The translations under genes were made by a program, and so were the position numbers. From Chlorobaculum tepidum TLS (GTDB taxonomy: Bacteria; Bacteroidota; Chlorobiia; Chlorobiales; Chlorobiaceae), in NCBI RefSeq assembly GCF_000006985.1, contig NC_002932.3, forward strand, positions 1,165,109-1,229,108: a DNA stretch of 64,000 nt. Reading direction: 5' to 3'. Numbering within the stretch: the first letter of the stretch is position 1; each line of letters starts with the position of its first letter. The notes beneath the pieces are model-generated. The model ran no database searches. It saw only the letters and a program-made list of their open reading frames with translations, and was not told where the DNA came from. Shown here piece after piece: positions 5,617 to 12,892 of this stretch.

Positions 5617-5644
5617 TGGACATTAGTGTATTTTTTGTTACAAT
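5617..5644 (+). promoter_or_regulatory. Putative sigma-70-type promoter of the Hdr/Flx cluster
   Basis: TGGACA (5617-5622), 16-base spacer, TACAAT (5639-5644), in the AT-rich gap between the divergent mscL and hdrCB genes and pointing at hdrCB. It lies about 165 bases before the hdrCB start, leaving a long leader. Prediction is by eye only. Confidence 0.4.
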
Positions 5645-5809: not shown

Positions 5810-7312
5810 ATGGAGCATACTATCCGTACAGATTCATTGAAGCGGCAGCTCGAACAAACGACAGGCAACCATTACGCCTGCTGCTATCAATGCGGCAAAT
5901 GCACCGCGGGATGTCCCGCCGGGGGCTTCATGGACAACCCGCCAGCCAGAATCATGCGCCTCGTGCAGGCCGGCTACGTCGAGGAGGCCATGCAGAGCGA
6001 TTCTCTCTGGTATTGCATCGGCTGCATGACCTGTACAGCCCGTTGCCCGCAGAACATGGAGATCGCCGGCACAATGGATGCCGTCAGGGAAATGGCTCTA
6101 AAAAGCGGAATCATCTCCTCCGATAAGGCCAAAAAGCTGGTCACCGCCTTCCATACCTCGTTCCTCAACACGGTACGCAAGAGCGGCCGCTTGCAGGAAC
6201 TCGCGCTCGTCAACAGCTACAAGCTGCGCACCCGCACCTTTTTGCAGGACGCCGGCGCTGGCCTCAAAATGATAAAGCAGGGCAAAATCAATCCGGTGAC
6301 GGCTATCACGGCAAAAGAGACCGTCGAACAGAAGGGGCAGATTGAGAAAATTTTCAAGATTGCTGAACAGGAAAGTCATACGGCTGCGCCAAAACGCAAG
6401 CCTGTCAAGCGCACCTTCAAAGCCAACGAACCGGTCAGGATCACTCCCGGCATGACCATCGGCTACTATCCCGGCTGCTCGCTCTCCGGCACAGCCAAGG
6501 ATTACGACATCTCCATCCGCAAGATGTGCGACCGGCTTGGCATAAGGCTCCATGAAATCGAGGACTGGAACTGCTGCGGCGCGAGTTCGGCTCACGCCAC
6601 CAACCACAAGCTCTCAGTGCTTCTGCCTGCGAGAAACCAGGCGCTGGCCGACCAGCAAGGCTTCGACTACGTACTCGCCCCCTGCGCCGCCTGCCTGAAC
6701 CGCCAGGTGACTGCCCGAAAAGCGCTCATGGAGTCAGAAGAGCTGCGCAACGAGCTGAAGAGCATAATGGGACGCGACACCGAATGCAAGGCGCAGTTCA
6801 TCGGCATCATGCAGGTGCTCGAAGGCATGGATCCCGAAGAGATCAAAAAACGGGTCACCCACCCGCTCAAGGATATGCCGCTGGCCTGCTACTACGGCTG
6901 CCTGCTGGTGCGTCCTTTCGATGCGATGGGTTACGACGACCCGGAAAATCCGACCAAGATGGAGGCAATCATCGAGGCGCTCGGCGCCAAGCCGGTTGAC
7001 TGGGCCTACAAGGTCGAGTGCTGCGGCGCGGGCCTGACGATGGCCCAGCAGGAGATGATCGAAGATCTGACCCACAAGATCGCCAAAAACGCAACCGTCA
7101 ACGGTGCGGGCGGTTTCGTCGTGGCCTGTCCGCTCTGCCACACCAACCTCGACATGCGTCAGGAAGGAATGCGCAAACGGTACAACGACGTCGGCGAGAT
7201 GCCGGTGTACTACATTTCCGATCTGGTCGCGATGGCTTGCGGCGCGAGTCCTGAAGAGGTCGCACTCGACAAACACTTCGTTCCGGCAACCGGCATGGTC
7301 AGAAACCATTAA
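5810..7312 (+). CDS. hdrCB: Fused heterodisulfide-reductase-like protein HdrC-HdrB
   Basis: One 500-residue polypeptide joins the two thiol-side subunits of soluble heterodisulfide reductase. Residues 1-190 are HdrC-like with two [4Fe-4S] motifs (C25/C28/C31/C35 and C69/C72/C75/C79). Residues about 215-460 are HdrB-like with two CCG domains: C223, C255-C256, C292, C295 and C364, C404-C405, C440, C443, which in the methanogen enzyme hold the noncubane clusters that cleave disulfides. Residues 190-212 form a Lys/Pro-rich linker. In Desulfovibrio and methanogens HdrB and HdrC are separate chains. The gene leads a cluster with hdrA and flxDCBA, so the likely role is the disulfide (or other thiol acceptor) site of a cytoplasmic bifurcating complex; the acceptor is unknown. 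Confidence 0.88.
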   Translation: MEHTIRTDSLKRQLEQTTGNHYACCYQCGKCTAGCPAGGFMDNPPARIMRLVQAGYVEEAMQSDSLWYCIGCMTCTARCPQNMEIAGTMDAVREMALKSGIISSDKAKKLVTAFHTSFLNTVRKSGRLQELALVNSYKLRTRTFLQDAGAGLKMIKQGKINPVTAITAKETVEQKGQIEKIFKIAEQESHTAAPKRKPVKRTFKANEPVRITPGMTIGYYPGCSLSGTAKDYDISIRKMCDRLGIRLHEIEDWNCCGASSAHATNHKLSVLLPARNQALADQQGFDYVLAPCAACLNRQVTARKALMESEELRNELKSIMGRDTECKAQFIGIMQVLEGMDPEEIKKRVTHPLKDMPLACYYGCLLVRPFDAMGYDDPENPTKMEAIIEALGAKPVDWAYKVECCGAGLTMAQQEMIEDLTHKIAKNATVNGAGGFVVACPLCHTNLDMRQEGMRKRYNDVGEMPVYYISDLVAMACGASPEEVALDKHFVPATGMVRNH

Positions 7313-7637
7313 TGCGCTCGCAGTGTATGAGAAAAAAAGCTGTTTGAATCGTACATTAAGAGTTCTAATCAGGTGGTTTTTCCGACCGGCTCCGGCAACA
7401 TCCCGTCATCCAGCGGGATACTCCCCTGACCAGGCGATACCTGCGTCAGCGTCCTGCTCGCTCAGGATGAACATCTGAACAAACAGGAGAGAGAAGCCGG
7501 AAAGGGAATTTCAATACGCAAAGCTTGAACTGCACTGCTGAAAACAGCGGTATTCGGGGCTGATTGTCCCCATAGTCTGGCGGCATGCGGTGCTTTTCGC
7601 TCCGATGCCGGAAACAATATCAACTCAGGGCTTCAGG
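7313..7637. other. 325-base gene-free gap inside the Hdr/Flx cluster
   Basis: No convincing open frame. It holds several small potential hairpins: CCCG/CGGG near 7412, GCTG-AAAA-CAGC near 7540, GGGG/CCCC near 7560, plus a TACATT hexamer at 7352 that could be a -10 box. AGGG seven bases before the ATG at 7638 could serve as hdrA ribosome-binding site. It may be an internal promoter/leader or a decayed gene; nothing decides between these. Confidence 0.35.
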
Positions 7638-9611
7638 ATGGCAAAAATAGGAGTCTTTGTTTGTCACTGCGGTGAAAATATCGCCTCGAAGGTCGATACG
7701 GGCAACCTTGTCAAGGCATTGTCCGACCATCCCGGCGTGGAAATCTGCAACGAGTATAAATATTTCTGCTCCGATCCCGGGCAGGAAACGGTCAAACGCG
7801 CGATCCGGGAGAACAACCTGACGGGCGTCGTGGTGGCAGCCTGTTCGCCGAGGATGCACGAAACGACCTTCCGCAAGGCGTGTGCCGAGGCCGGACTCAA
7901 CCCGTATATGCTCGAACTGGCCAACATCCGCGAGCAGTGCTCATGGGTGCATTCGGACAAGGATCAGGCTACTAAAAAGGCGATCGAGATCACCCGCTCG
8001 CTGGTCGAAAAGGTCAAGCGAAACAACGAGTTGAAGCCGATCTCCGTGCCGATCACCCGACGCGCTCTGGTCATCGGCGGCGGCATCGCGGGCATCCAGG
8101 CCGCGCTCGACATCGCCGGAGCCGGACGCGAAGTGATTCTGGTCGAACGTGAGCCATCGATTGGCGGCCACATGTCACAACTCTCCGAAACCTTCCCGAC
8201 GCTCGACTGCTCACAGTGCATCCTGACGCCGCGCATGGTCGAGGCGATCCAGCATCCGAACATCACGGTACTGACCTACTCCGAAGTCGAAGAGGTTGAC
8301 GGCTATATCGGCAACTTCAGGGTAAAGGTGCGCAAGAAGGCGCGCTACGTCGATATAGACAAGTGCACCGGCTGCGGCGACTGCATCCAGAAGTGCCCGG
8401 TCAAAAAGATTCCGAGCGAGTTCGAGTGCGGCCTCGGCAACCGCACGGCGATTTATACGCCATTCGCGCAGGCCGTGCCGAACGTGCCGGTGATCGACAA
8501 GAACCGCTGCACCTACTTCAAAAACGGCAAGTGCAAAATCTGCCAGAAGACCTGCCAGATCGAGAACTGCATCGATTTCGAGATGCAGGACACCTTCGAG
8601 GAGTACGAGGTTGGCGCGATTGTCGTAGCCACCGGCTTCCAGATTCAGGACACGAGTGTGTACGGCGAATACGGTTACGGCAAGTACAAGGACGTGATTA
8701 CCGGCCTCAGCTTCGAACGGCTCGCCTCGGCCAGCGGCCCGACTGCCGGAAAGATTCTGCGCCCGTCGGACGGCAAGGAACCGGAGACCGTGGTCTTCAT
8801 CCAGTGCGCCGGTTCGCGCGATCCGTCGAAAGGCGTCAAATACTGCTCCAAGATTTGCTGCATGTACACGGCAAAACACGCCATGCTCTATGCGCACAAG
8901 CACCATGGCAGCAACAGCAAGATTTTCTACATGGACATCCGCGCCGCGGGCAAAGGGTACGACGAGTTCACCCGCCGTGCCATCGAAGAGGATGAGGCCG
9001 AGTACCTGAGGGGCCGTGTCAGCAAGGTGTTCGAAGAGAACGGCAAGCTGATCGTGCGCGGCGTCGATACGCTGCTCGGCAAGCCGGTCGAGGTGGCTGC
9101 CGATATGGTGGTGCTCGCCACGGCCATCGTCCCGCAGCCGGACGCAAAGGAGTTTGCCAAACGCATCGGCATCGGCTACGACGAGTACGGTTTCTACAAC
9201 GAAGCGCACCTGAAGCTGCGCCCGGTCGAAACCGCCACCGCCGGCATCTACCTCTGCGGTGCATGCCAGTCACCGAAAGATATTCCCGATTCGGTCGCTC
9301 AGGCTTCAGCGGCAGCAGCCAAGGTGCTCGGCCTGTTCAACCGCGAACAGCTCGAACGCGAGCCGGTAGTGGCTGCTGTCGGCGAATCGACCTGCGCCGG
9401 ATGCTGGGGCTGCGTCTATGCCTGTCCGTACAACGCTATCGAGCAGAAGGAGATCAGGGACCGCAACGGCAACCTTATCAAGGAGGTCGCCAGCGTCAAT
9501 CCGGGCCTCTGCCAGGGATGCGGCACCTGCGTGACCTTCTGCCGATCGAACAGTATCGATCTGGCGGGATTCACCGAAAAGCAGATATTCGCCGAAGTGA
9601 TGGCGCTCTGA
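7638..9611 (+). CDS. hdrA: HdrA-like flavin/iron-sulfur subunit
   Basis: FAD-bearing subunit at which flavin-based electron bifurcation occurs in Hdr complexes; 657 residues, the usual HdrA length. Visible: N-terminal HdrA domain starting MAKIGVFVCHCGENI, the Rossmann FAD motif VIGGGIAGIQAALDIA near 146-160, a conserved Cys pair CSQC at 191-194, a ferredoxin motif CTGCGDCIQKCP at 243-253, further cysteines C291/C299/C302/C306/C311, and two C-terminal [4Fe-4S] motifs (CAGCWGCVYACP and CQGCGTCVTFC). The ATG at 7638 is preferred over an upstream GTG at 7590 because family similarity begins there. It lies between hdrCB and flxD and should be the electron-splitting centre of the complex. Confidence 0.93.
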   Translation: MAKIGVFVCHCGENIASKVDTGNLVKALSDHPGVEICNEYKYFCSDPGQETVKRAIRENNLTGVVVAACSPRMHETTFRKACAEAGLNPYMLELANIREQCSWVHSDKDQATKKAIEITRSLVEKVKRNNELKPISVPITRRALVIGGGIAGIQAALDIAGAGREVILVEREPSIGGHMSQLSETFPTLDCSQCILTPRMVEAIQHPNITVLTYSEVEEVDGYIGNFRVKVRKKARYVDIDKCTGCGDCIQKCPVKKIPSEFECGLGNRTAIYTPFAQAVPNVPVIDKNRCTYFKNGKCKICQKTCQIENCIDFEMQDTFEEYEVGAIVVATGFQIQDTSVYGEYGYGKYKDVITGLSFERLASASGPTAGKILRPSDGKEPETVVFIQCAGSRDPSKGVKYCSKICCMYTAKHAMLYAHKHHGSNSKIFYMDIRAAGKGYDEFTRRAIEEDEAEYLRGRVSKVFEENGKLIVRGVDTLLGKPVEVAADMVVLATAIVPQPDAKEFAKRIGIGYDEYGFYNEAHLKLRPVETATAGIYLCGACQSPKDIPDSVAQASAAAAKVLGLFNREQLEREPVVAAVGESTCAGCWGCVYACPYNAIEQKEIRDRNGNLIKEVASVNPGLCQGCGTCVTFCRSNSIDLAGFTEKQIFAEVMAL

Positions 9612-9668
9612 CAATATGCCAAACGCCGTAACAGCAACCTGAACTCAACCAAGCGACCGAATCAGCCG

Positions 9669-10118
9669 ATGAGCGAACCATTCGAACCGAAAATCGTGGC
9701 TTTTGTCTGCACCTACTGCACCTACGCGGGCGCTGACCTCGCGGGCACGAGCCGTCTGAACTATGCGCCAAACGTCAGAATCGTGCGTCTCCCCTGCACG
9801 GGACGCATCAGCCCGATGTTCATCCTCAAAGCGTTGCAGAAAGGAGCCGATTCAGTGCTCGTGAGCGGCTGCCACCCCGGTGACTGCCACTTCACCGCGG
9901 GCAACTACCACGCCCGCCGCCGCTGGACGGTCTTCCGCGCCCTGCTCTCCTTCACCGGCATCCCGGAAGAGCGCATCCGCTTCTCGTGGATCAGCGCCGC
10001 CGAGGGGGCCAAGTTCGCCGAACTCATCAACGAAATCACTGACGACACCCGCAAGCTCGGGCCGTTCACGCAGTACCAGGAGCTGCAGAAAGTCATCGAA
10101 ACCCAGTCGACGTATTAA
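9669..10118 (+). CDS. flxD: MvhD/FlxD-type [2Fe-2S] electron-transfer subunit
   Basis: Small cytoplasmic iron-sulfur subunit (149 residues) that passes electrons into HdrA. Family marks: CTYCTYAGADLAGTSRL near residue 15, PCTGRISP near 42, and SGCHPGDCHF near 65, whose cysteines bind the cluster. In methanogens the partner is the Mvh hydrogenase; here no hydrogenase subunit is nearby and the following three genes are of Flx type, so NAD(P)H rather than hydrogen is the probable electron source. It sits 57 bases after hdrA and 3 bases before the next gene. Confidence 0.9.
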   Translation: MSEPFEPKIVAFVCTYCTYAGADLAGTSRLNYAPNVRIVRLPCTGRISPMFILKALQKGADSVLVSGCHPGDCHFTAGNYHARRRWTVFRALLSFTGIPEERIRFSWISAAEGAKFAELINEITDDTRKLGPFTQYQELQKVIETQSTY

Positions 10119-10121
10119 TCA

Positions 10122-10952
10122 ATGGGAATACAGGAACAATACAGAAGTGAAGCGGCAGCGCTGCTCTCGTCGGGCGAAGTGAAGCTGGTCATCGGCTTCA
10201 GCGCGGGTTCGACCGCCGACCGACGACGTCCGTTTTTCGCCCGCACGCCCGAAGAGGCCGAAAAGTTCGTGCTCGACGCGGCCTGCATCGCCAACCTCTC
10301 GACCTACCTGGTCGCCGAAGGGCTGCTTTCGGACGGCAAGAAAGTCGGTGTTTTCCTCAAGCTGGACGGCATCCGCAGCGTCAATATTCTCATCTCCGAA
10401 GCCCAGCTCAAGCCGGAGCAGGTCGTGATTCTCGGTTACGCCATCGAAAACGGCAAGGATGTCGTACCTCTCGAAGGCCGTAACATTTCCGATTTCAACA
10501 TTGGCGAAAAAATCCGGAGCCATACGCCACCCCCACACGTCATCGAGGCCGCTGAAAAGATTGAAGCGATGAGCGCACAGGAGCGGTTCGAGTTCTGGAA
10601 AGAGGAGTTCGCGAAGTGTATCAAGTGCTACGCCTGCCGTCAGGTCTGCCCGATGTGCTACTGCCGCCGCTGCATCGTGGACGTCAACCAGCCGCAGTGG
10701 ATCAGCACCTCGTCGCACACCCTCGGCAACTTCGAATGGAACCTCGTCCGCGCCTTTCATCTGGCCGGACGCTGCGCGGCCTGCGGCGCCTGCGACCGAG
10801 CCTGCCCGGTGAACATCCCGCTCCGGCTCCTCAACTACCGCATGGGCAAGGAGGTGCGCAGCGCCTTCGATTACGTCGCTGGCGAAAACAGCGATCAGAA
10901 ACCGGTGCTCGCGAGCTTCAAGCAGGACGATCCCGAGACCTTCATTCTTTAA
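10122..10952 (+). CDS. flxC: FlxC-like 4Fe-4S dicluster protein
   Basis: 276-residue cytoplasmic iron-sulfur protein. The N-terminal half has no cysteine cluster (GFSAGSTADRRRPFF, EAEKFVLDA...LSTYL) and resembles the N-terminal part of hydrogenase/sulfite-reductase-associated beta subunits. The C-terminal half has CIKCYACRQVCPMCYC near residue 167 and CAACGACDRACPVNIP near 218, enough for two [4Fe-4S] clusters. Named by position: the order D-C-B-A is the reverse of flxABCD in Desulfovibrio. Probably wires NAD(P)H-derived electrons from FlxA toward FlxD/HdrA. The ATG follows flxD by 3 bases. Confidence 0.72.
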   Translation: MGIQEQYRSEAAALLSSGEVKLVIGFSAGSTADRRRPFFARTPEEAEKFVLDAACIANLSTYLVAEGLLSDGKKVGVFLKLDGIRSVNILISEAQLKPEQVVILGYAIENGKDVVPLEGRNISDFNIGEKIRSHTPPPHVIEAAEKIEAMSAQERFEFWKEEFAKCIKCYACRQVCPMCYCRRCIVDVNQPQWISTSSHTLGNFEWNLVRAFHLAGRCAACGACDRACPVNIPLRLLNYRMGKEVRSAFDYVAGENSDQKPVLASFKQDDPETFIL

Positions 10953-10966
10953 GCATCCGGACAAGC

Positions 10967-11980
10967 ATGACCAGAATACTTCTCAGGAACAAACTCGACG
11001 AGTGCCTTGCCGCGTGGCAAAAAGCCGGATTCAGCGTGCTGGCGCCCGTGAAGCGCCACGAGATGAGTTGCTTCGGCGAGGTGCAGAAGTCGGGCGACAT
11101 GGCCCTCGACCTCGTTCTAACCGAGCGCACCATCAAGGATCAGTTCTTCCCGCAGACCGAGCCGCTCATCAAATACAGGATTGGCAAACAGCAGATCGAC
11201 AGCGAAACCATGACGCCGCCCGAAAAGAAGCGCGTCTTCTTCGGCGTGCGTCCGTGCGATGCGTCAGGCCTCGCCATCGACGACCCGCTCTTCGGCTGGG
11301 ACTACAAGGACGACTACTGGTTCCGCCGCCGCGAAAAATCGGTAATCGTCACCATCGCCTGCGCCCAGGCGGACGACTTCTGCATGTGCACCTCGGTGAA
11401 ACTCTCGCCCGATAGCACCAAAGGCGCGGACGTGATGCTCCGCCCGCTCTCGGACGGCAGCGGCTGGCAGGTCGAAGCCGTCTCGGATCGAGGCACTGCG
11501 CTGGTGGACACCGTTTCGTCGCTCCTGCAGGAAAGCTCAGCCGAAGCTGCGCCCGTGCCGCAGGTCGCTGAAAAGTTCGATGTCGAAAAGGTGATGGAGT
11601 GGCTCGCCGACAAGGAAAACTTCGAAAGCCAGTTCTGGAAAGATATCGCCCTGCGCTGCGTCGGCTGCGGAAGCTGCACCTTCCTCTGCCCCACCTGCCA
11701 CTGCTTCGACATCCAGGACGAGGGCGACACCTATCAGGGTATCCGTCGCAAAAACTGGGACAGCTGCTCCTTCCCGCTCTTCACGATGCACACCTCCGGC
11801 CACAACCCGCGGAACACGCAATCGACCCGGTGGCGGCAACGCATCATGCACAAGTTCAACTACTACCGTGGCAAGTTCGGCGTCAACAGTTGCTCCGGCT
11901 GCGGCCGCTGCACCCGCCAGTGCCCGGTGGACATGGGTATTACTGAAACTCTGCAAGCGATTACAAATTTACCGAGGTGA
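10967..11980 (+). CDS. flxB: FlxB-like (AsrA-related) 4Fe-4S protein
   Basis: 337-residue iron-sulfur subunit resembling anaerobic sulfite reductase subunit A and hydrogenase electron-transfer subunits. Seen: FFGVRPCDASGLAIDDPLF near residue 90, CAQADDFCMC near 130, then CVGCGSCTFLCPTCHCFD near 227 and CSGCGRCTRQCPVDMG near 310. An open frame extends upstream through flxC, but similarity begins at the ATG at 10967, 14 bases after the flxC stop. It overlaps flxA by four bases (GTGA), a sign of translational coupling. Likely relays electrons between FlxA and the HdrA side; it binds no sulfite itself in this setting as far as can be seen. Confidence 0.75.
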   Translation: MTRILLRNKLDECLAAWQKAGFSVLAPVKRHEMSCFGEVQKSGDMALDLVLTERTIKDQFFPQTEPLIKYRIGKQQIDSETMTPPEKKRVFFGVRPCDASGLAIDDPLFGWDYKDDYWFRRREKSVIVTIACAQADDFCMCTSVKLSPDSTKGADVMLRPLSDGSGWQVEAVSDRGTALVDTVSSLLQESSAEAAPVPQVAEKFDVEKVMEWLADKENFESQFWKDIALRCVGCGSCTFLCPTCHCFDIQDEGDTYQGIRRKNWDSCSFPLFTMHTSGHNPRNTQSTRWRQRIMHKFNYYRGKFGVNSCSGCGRCTRQCPVDMGITETLQAITNLPR

Positions 11981-12843
11981 CACAAGACCGATACCATACC
12001 CACGACATGATCTACAGCCCGTTTCCGATGCGGGTTGTGTCAAAGCGCGCTGAAGCTCCCGGCGTCAACACCCTCAAGCTCGAATTCGTCAAACAGGAAG
12101 ATCACGAGTTTTTCAAGGCTAATTACCGGACCGGTATGTTCGGCCTCTACGGTGTCTTCGGCGAGGGCGAAAGCACCTTCTGCGTCGCCAGCCCGGAGAC
12201 CCGAAAGGAGTACATCGAATGCACCTTCCGCCAGTCGGGGCGCGTCACTTCGACGCTCGCCAACACCGACGCGGGCGACATCGTAACCTTCCGCGGCCCC
12301 TACGGCAACCGCTTTCCGATCGAAGAGTTCGAGGGCAAGAACCTGCTCTTCATCGCCGGCGGCATCGCCCTGCCGCCGACGCGCAGCGTCATCTGGTCGT
12401 GCCTCGACCAGCGGGAGAAGTACCGCGACGTGACCATCGTTTATGGCGCGAGAACCGTAGCCGACCTCGTCTATAAAAACGAGCTCGACGAATGGAAACA
12501 GCGCGACGACGTGCGTCTCGTGCTGACGGTCGATCCCGGAGGCGAAACCCCCGACTGGCAGGATCACGTCGGCTTCGTGCCGACGGTGCTCGAACAGGCC
12601 GCCCCGTCGCCGGAGAACACCATCGCCGTGCTCTGCGGCCCGCCGATCATGATCAAATTCACGCTAACCGCGCTCGAAAAGCTTGGCTTCACGGCGGAGA
12701 ACGTTTACACCACGCTGGAGAACCGGATGAAATGCGGAATAGGCAAATGCGGCCGCTGCAACGTCGGTTCGATCTACATCTGCAAAGAGGGACCGGTGTT
12801 CACAGCAGCCGAAGTGCAGGCCATGCCGCAAGCTGATCTGTAA
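11977..12843 (+). CDS. flxA: FlxA-like NAD(P)H-binding flavoprotein (AsrB/PyrK family)
   Basis: Ferredoxin-NADP reductase-like subunit that would take electrons from NADH or NADPH. Seen: FAD-binding barrel sequence (TFRGPYGNRFPIEEF about 105-120), nucleotide-binding GKNLLFIAGGIALPPTRS, AVLCGPPIMIKFT near 215, and a C-terminal cysteine group MKCGIGKCGRCNVG...YICKEGP typical of the [2Fe-2S] site of PyrK/AsrB proteins. The GTG at 11977 overlaps the flxB stop; an ATG at 12007 is a possible alternative start. It is the last gene of the cluster, followed 20 bases on by a terminator. Confidence 0.8.
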   Translation: MTQDRYHTHDMIYSPFPMRVVSKRAEAPGVNTLKLEFVKQEDHEFFKANYRTGMFGLYGVFGEGESTFCVASPETRKEYIECTFRQSGRVTSTLANTDAGDIVTFRGPYGNRFPIEEFEGKNLLFIAGGIALPPTRSVIWSCLDQREKYRDVTIVYGARTVADLVYKNELDEWKQRDDVRLVLTVDPGGETPDWQDHVGFVPTVLEQAAPSPENTIAVLCGPPIMIKFTLTALEKLGFTAENVYTTLENRMKCGIGKCGRCNVGSIYICKEGPVFTAAEVQAMPQADL

Positions 12844-12862
12844 GATATTTGAAAATGGACAC

Positions 12863-12892
12863 AAAAAGGGGGCGGAAACGCTCCCTTTTTTT
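12863..12892 (+). terminator. Rho-independent terminator of the Hdr/Flx cluster
   Basis: A 12-bp stem with one G-T pair (12863-12874 with 12879-12890), GAAA loop and run of T, 20 bases after flxA. Confidence 0.92.

Follow-up and report, generated by a model that had tools for sequence, protein, structure and literature searches.

What does an Hdr/Flx electron-transfer enzyme do in a phototroph with a type I reaction centre, and which disulfide is its partner? These questions are raised by the operon hdrCB-hdrA-flxDCBA of Chlorobaculum tepidum TLS, which lies in a stretch of 64,000 nucleotides (the window; NC_002932.3, positions 1,165,109 to 1,229,108, forward strand). Positions below are those of the window unless the genome is named. 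A preliminary description of the window had proposed a bifurcating NAD(P)H:ferredoxin:disulfide oxidoreductase, and we find this identity well founded. Because of subunit homology, synteny and cofactor-site conservation, the operon probably encodes a soluble, flavin-based electron-bifurcating enzyme of the FlxABCD-HdrABC type in which HdrC and HdrB form one chain. The Chlorobiaceae operon is a conserved, family-wide variant of an enzyme type already known. Its HdrC-HdrB fusion is a minor structural novelty; the finding of greater use is that genomes without DsrC retain the enzyme.

Subunits and cofactor sites

HdrCB consists of an HdrC half (residues ~1–120), a linker, and an HdrB half (residues ~215–497), and by Pfam this single chain carries a 4Fe-4S dicluster domain as well as two CCG domains. 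The HdrC half has the 4Fe-4S motifs CYQCGKCTAGC (at 25) and CIGCMTCTARC (at 69). In the HdrB half, the CCG cysteines that had been listed beforehand (C223/C255-256/C292/C295 and C364/C404-405/C440/C443) are at exactly those positions, and both motifs are intact. Loss of the HdrB clusters in homologues had been named as an observation that would refute the proposal. We looked for it and found instead that none of the ten CCG-motif cysteines and none of the eight in the HdrC clusters varies among 60 Chlorobiaceae sequences, hence not a matter of chance; in this alignment the CCG cysteines are invariant also in the lineages that lack dsr genes. The two halves match solved structures separately (HdrB half to 8rvv_B, 3e-36; HdrC half to 5odc_C, 4e-14). 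An AlphaFold2 model of the fused chain had a predicted local distance difference test score of 85.5; its HdrB half fits 5odc_B with a target-normalised template modelling (TM) score of 0.90, and its HdrC half fits more weakly (TM 0.51–0.59).

The match of HdrA to 5odc_A is full-length (3e-207; 51% identity over 639 aligned positions). All Fe-S cysteine motifs of 5odc_A are kept, one with a short insertion between its first two cysteines, and the isolated cysteines C23, C83 and C326 of 5odc_A are not conserved. The lysine at 5odc position 409, as placed by the alignment, which adjoins the flavin adenine dinucleotide (FAD), is conserved. HdrA thus has the FAD and, by its cysteine motifs, all Fe-S sites of the FlxABCD-HdrABC type. 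Its score against NF040770 (787 bits) is under the cut-off of 1100 because MvhD is a separate gene here. By homology and synteny, the iron-sulfur subunits FlxB and FlxC and an MvhD-like FlxD adjoin HdrA, and FlxA carries PF00175 and PF10418, a NAD(P)H module with FAD, NAD-binding and 2Fe-2S parts. FlxB and FlxA resemble the beta and gamma subunits of sulfhydrogenase 1, and FlxC resembles, in its C-terminal part, FdhB of the Fdh-Hdr complexes.

The subunit identities and cofactor sites come from the sequence itself; the electron path, the bifurcation and its direction are modelled on solved homologues. A hydride from NAD(P)H would be taken up by the FAD of FlxA. From the [2Fe-2S] cluster of FlxA, electrons would pass on to FlxB and FlxC with their 4Fe-4S clusters, then to FlxD with its [2Fe-2S] cluster, and finally to the HdrA flavin. 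Here they would split: one electron would reach ferredoxin by way of the 4Fe-4S clusters in the C-terminal part of HdrA, and the other would cross the HdrC half and arrive at the pair of noncubane clusters in the HdrB half, which would reduce a disulfide. Together the subunits would form a continuous path from NAD(P)H to HdrA and beyond it to a disulfide site. The enzyme might also run in reverse.

Distribution and gene order

A search of the phylum found the fused protein in 55 of 55 Chlorobiaceae genomes (66–100% identical; 93% in Chlorobaculum thiosulfatiphilum), and 58 named Chlorobiaceae loci share the order hdrCB-hdrA-flxD-C-B-A to the extent that their contigs cover it. In one genome (G052; L122, G052:C1:760000-772000) the hdrCB frame is broken near codon 108, where one base is missing in an A-homopolymer; this is an otherwise complete Chlorobaculum genome, and the break is either a sequencing error or a recent frameshift. 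No full-length HdrCB was found in Chloroherpetonaceae or in the order's other families that were searched, and the best FlxA match there was 37%.

The reversed gene order, which the preliminary description had set against that of Desulfovibrio as if it were new, turned out not to be a novelty of Chlorobi, being present in four other phyla. An unfused hdrC-hdrB-hdrA-flxD-C-B-A cluster occurs in Bacteroidota (L132-L136, L103), Planctomycetota (L100), Thermosyntropha (Bacillota; L097), Desulfovibrionaceae (L112, L113, L115) and other Thermodesulfobacteriota (L152-L154, L163). Chlorobiaceae sequences make up a single clade (100/100) of the HdrA tree, within a Bacteroidota-Planctomycetota group (100/99) and nested with FlxABCD-HdrABC systems of anaerobes.

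The fusion by itself is not strictly exclusive to Chlorobiaceae either. Five HdrC-HdrB fusions of 484–674 aa occur in Thermodesulfobacteriota (L155, L156, L158, L159, L160) without a Flx cluster, and their HdrB halves fall outside the Chlorobiaceae clade in a tree with an unresolved backbone. A planctomycete fusion (L149) was discarded as an assembly artefact, since it spans an N gap. In ~590 genomes of Thermodesulfobacteriota and Planctomycetota, the HdrC and HdrB halves of the best full-length matches are separated by stops. The fusion combined with Flx was seen only in Chlorobiaceae.

We also noted, in several loci, an in-frame TGA at a cluster cysteine of HdrA and of FlxD/MvhD (L097 12351-12353 and 13964-13966; L152 6636-6638; L153 6192-6194; L105 9238-9240; L109 11835-11837; L110 15035-15037). 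The contexts across these loci are DCAA* and DCSA* in HdrA and SG*HPGEC in FlxD/MvhD, and the codon probably stands for selenocysteine.

Role, direction and disulfide partner

Of 86 Chlorobiaceae genomes, 75, that of C. tepidum among them, lack the Complex1_51K domain common to NuoF and RnfC; in each of the remaining 11 one protein of 441 aa, of RnfC size, carries it. A NuoF-type NADH entry into complex I is missing, and therefore Flx-Hdr is plausible as a main link between NADH and ferredoxin in Chlorobiaceae. For the same reason, a role in balancing the NADH and ferredoxin pools seems likely, for example by reoxidizing NADH in the dark or in low light. Several points weigh against a bifurcating enzyme encoded by one operon. 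Bifurcation itself is not provable from sequence; reaction centre I supplies ferredoxin in the light, and it is not evident why an enzyme that makes it would be needed; and the gap between hdrCB and hdrA, 85–355 bp among relatives, leaves room for separate control of hdrCB.

The complex might instead be mainly confurcating, making NAD(P)H from photosynthetically reduced ferredoxin and thiol. Reduced ferredoxin is plentiful in the light and bifurcating enzymes are reversible, but Chlorobiaceae already have a ferredoxin:NAD(P) reductase and nothing in the sequence sets the direction; we consider this a possible but somewhat doubtful reading.

For a bifurcating FlxABCD-HdrABC-type enzyme, one candidate partner is the disulfide of N-methyl-bacillithiol, in which case the complex would keep the thiol reduced and link its redox state to the pools of NADH and ferredoxin. 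Chlorobiaceae universally make this thiol, which is redox-responsive (PMC6282198). Consistent with this, bshC was found in 7 of 7 Chlorobiaceae tested, including six without dsrC; it is also present in four of five Bacteroidota holding the unfused cluster. However, mutants without N-methyl-bacillithiol grew only ~20% slower (PMC6282198), and bshC is absent from close unfused relatives, namely G156, Dysgonomonas, two Planctomycetota and Thermosyntropha. Owing to these absences, a general partnership across the clade is not supported, and we regard N-methyl-bacillithiol disulfide as an unlikely partner.

DsrC had been the first partner suggested for testing, together with the remark that dsrC was not present. 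That remark is correct for the locus but not for the genome, where dsrC occurs twice at other sites (genome positions 810860 and 2113431; dsrA at 811373 and 2112090). The doubling of dsrC and dsrA is seen in G052 too, and in G169 the second dsrA is split. In an enzyme linked to DsrC as in Desulfovibrio vulgaris, the HdrB half would reduce or oxidize a DsrC trisulfide/disulfide and so tie sulfur oxidation to NADH and ferredoxin. The two dsrC genes of C. tepidum would fit this, as would the interaction of the D. vulgaris complex with DsrC (Ferreira et al., 2023, as cited in PMC10504309). However, 24 of 86 Chlorobiaceae genomes lack DsrC (PF04358). When genomes at least 94% complete were counted and DsrA was judged by the TIGR02064 cut-off, 12 Chlorobiaceae (G083, G094, G141, G149, G161, G165, G189, G201, G213, G217, G221, G245) had neither a DsrC match nor DsrA over the cut-off, all with full-length HdrCB. 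The locus of G221 is the same as that of Chlorobium ferrooxidans DSM 13031, whose genome also gave no DsrC match. Of 10 genomes with related clusters, 9 gave no DsrC match, including the unfused Bacteroidota, Planctomycetota and Thermosyntropha; the Desulfovibrionaceae one has a match.

Since both the Chlorobiaceae without dsrC and dsrA and the unfused relatives without dsrC keep the enzyme, co-occurrence disfavours DsrC: it is unlikely to be the obligate partner or the partner alone, and an enzyme working as in D. vulgaris appears decidedly improbable. Nor, given the relatives elsewhere, is DsrC defining for the whole FlxABCD-HdrABC family. Neither DsrC nor bacillithiol accounts for the whole clade. 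In the dsr-less Chlorobiaceae we noted a frame at G165:C5:44173-44997, and similar frames of ~300 aa, that score 80–100 bits to dsrA, below the cut-off; these probably belong to another siroheme sulfite reductase.

Lastly, it is very improbable that HdrCB serves, like HdrD, in some quinone-linked or other enzyme, with hdrA-flx a separate unit: its domain order equals that of HdrD and a 325-bp gap precedes hdrA, but neither a membrane nor a cytochrome b gene adjoins, hdrCB precedes hdrA-flxDCBA throughout the 58 named loci to the extent that the contigs cover them, and the unfused relatives have hdrC-hdrB at the same place in one operon.

A Flx-Hdr enzyme that is universal in the family offers a concrete, testable candidate for the balance of NADH against reaction centre I ferredoxin, in a genetically tractable host, and fused HdrCB provides a single-chain handle for biochemistry. 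Retention of the enzyme without DsrC indicates that, for Flx-Hdr enzymes at large, the identity of the disulfide partner is still to be settled. We think it rather unlikely that all Chlorobiaceae depend on this DsrC-independent, bifurcating fused-HdrCB enzyme as a main soluble hub between NADH, ferredoxin and thiols, the acceptor being N-methyl-bacillithiol disulfide or a protein disulfide; if so, thiol redox state would be directly coupled to photosynthetic electron supply.

Operon layout and comparison with known systems

The features of the operon are collected in Table 1. The hdrA frame opens at a GTG (7590), upstream of the start used in all homologues. The four flx genes are packed tightly, unlike hdrCB and hdrA, and no conserved extra gene was seen inside the operon. 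In the 325-bp gap we found neither a terminator-like nor a plus-strand promoter-like site, and a comparison with Rfam for an RNA element returned zero family matches. The terminator-like stem-loop agrees with the end of the cluster at 12892 given in the preliminary description. An upstream aminotransferase gene is a conserved neighbour (28 of 31), and an NNR-type gene and purL are further conserved neighbours, all without evident link to the operon; the flanking DNA downstream of flxA varies.

Table 1. Features of the hdrCB-hdrA-flxDCBA operon (window positions).
Feature	Position	Strand	Basis
Promoter-like site TGGACA-16-TACAAT with TG before the -10, 5' of hdrCB; number of such sites in the region not above chance	5617-5644	+	Consensus match
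hdrCB, fused HdrC-HdrB, 500 aa	5810-7312	+	Open reading frame (ORF) list, Pfam domains, cysteine motifs
hdrCB-hdrA gap, 325 bp	7313-7637	+	85-355 bp in relatives
hdrA, FAD and Fe-S bifurcation subunit (predicted), 657 aa	7638-9611	+	ORF, Pfam, structure homologue
flxD, MvhD-type [2Fe-2S] linker	9669-10118	+	PF02662 1.5e-50; 5odc_D 1.1e-42
flxC, two 4Fe-4S clusters, C-terminal part FdhB-like	10122-10952	+	7bkb_E 5.8e-19
flxB, 4Fe-4S, sulfhydrogenase beta / AsrA-like	10967-11980	+	9nez_B 1.1e-40
flxA, FAD/NAD(P)H and [2Fe-2S], sulfhydrogenase gamma / PyrK-like	11977-12843	+	9nez_C 4.7e-55
Intrinsic terminator-like stem-loop with T7	12867-12891	+	Sequence; fold -18.7 kcal/mol

We found no account of this cluster in Chlorobi in the open literature, though Ramos et al. 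(2015) may list Chlorobi. QmoABC, with two HdrA-like subunits and the membrane subunit QmoC, is not matched by the operon; HdrA-like repeats at genome positions 823230-826277, next to a QmoC-like match at 826865, belong to a different locus. Against the equivalog for SdhE, or 8-methylmenaquinol:fumarate reductase anchor, the chain scores 175.6 bits (cut-off 500), and the genome's own SdhE-like CCG protein, 34% identical, is distant in the tree. Two strong CCG domains were also noted on the minus strand at genome positions 2028322-2028951 (L001, L002), in a frame given as 3932 aa.

HdrD of methanogens is HdrC and HdrB in one chain, so HdrDE shares the fused chain with Chlorobiaceae; a gene for the membrane cytochrome b HdrE is absent from the C. 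tepidum operon and from its sides. HdrABC-MvhAGD (5odc) of methanogens and Fdh-Hdr (7bkb) have homologous HdrA, HdrB, HdrC and MvhD with the cluster cysteine motifs kept. They differ in electron input, which comes from a hydrogenase or a formate dehydrogenase, respectively, instead of a NAD(P)H module, and CoM-S-S-CoB (coenzyme M-coenzyme B disulfide) is not known from Chlorobiaceae. The Thermodesulfobacteriota fusions share the single HdrC-HdrB chain but lie outside Flx operons.

In a tubeworm (Escarpia) symbiont, a flxABCD-hdrABC set is proposed to feed the reductive tricarboxylic acid cycle (PMC6315080). Both systems are Flx-Hdr sets in an autotroph with this cycle; the symbiont set is interspersed with korABCD and tfrAB (PMC6315080), whereas no such genes adjoin the Chlorobaculum operon. 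FlxABCD-HdrABC of D. vulgaris, described there and in other anaerobes (Ramos et al., 2015, as cited in PMC6315080 and PMC5296606), is alike in subunit set, single operon and predicted reaction. By contrast, Chlorobiaceae have the HdrC-HdrB fusion, the order hdrCB-hdrA-flxDCBA, and retention of the enzyme without DsrC. The unfused clusters of Bacteroidota, Dysgonomonas and Planctomycetota have the same gene order and HdrA proteins that are 63–67% identical and neighbours in the tree, and they differ in having hdrC and hdrB as separate genes, in hosts outside Chlorobiaceae.

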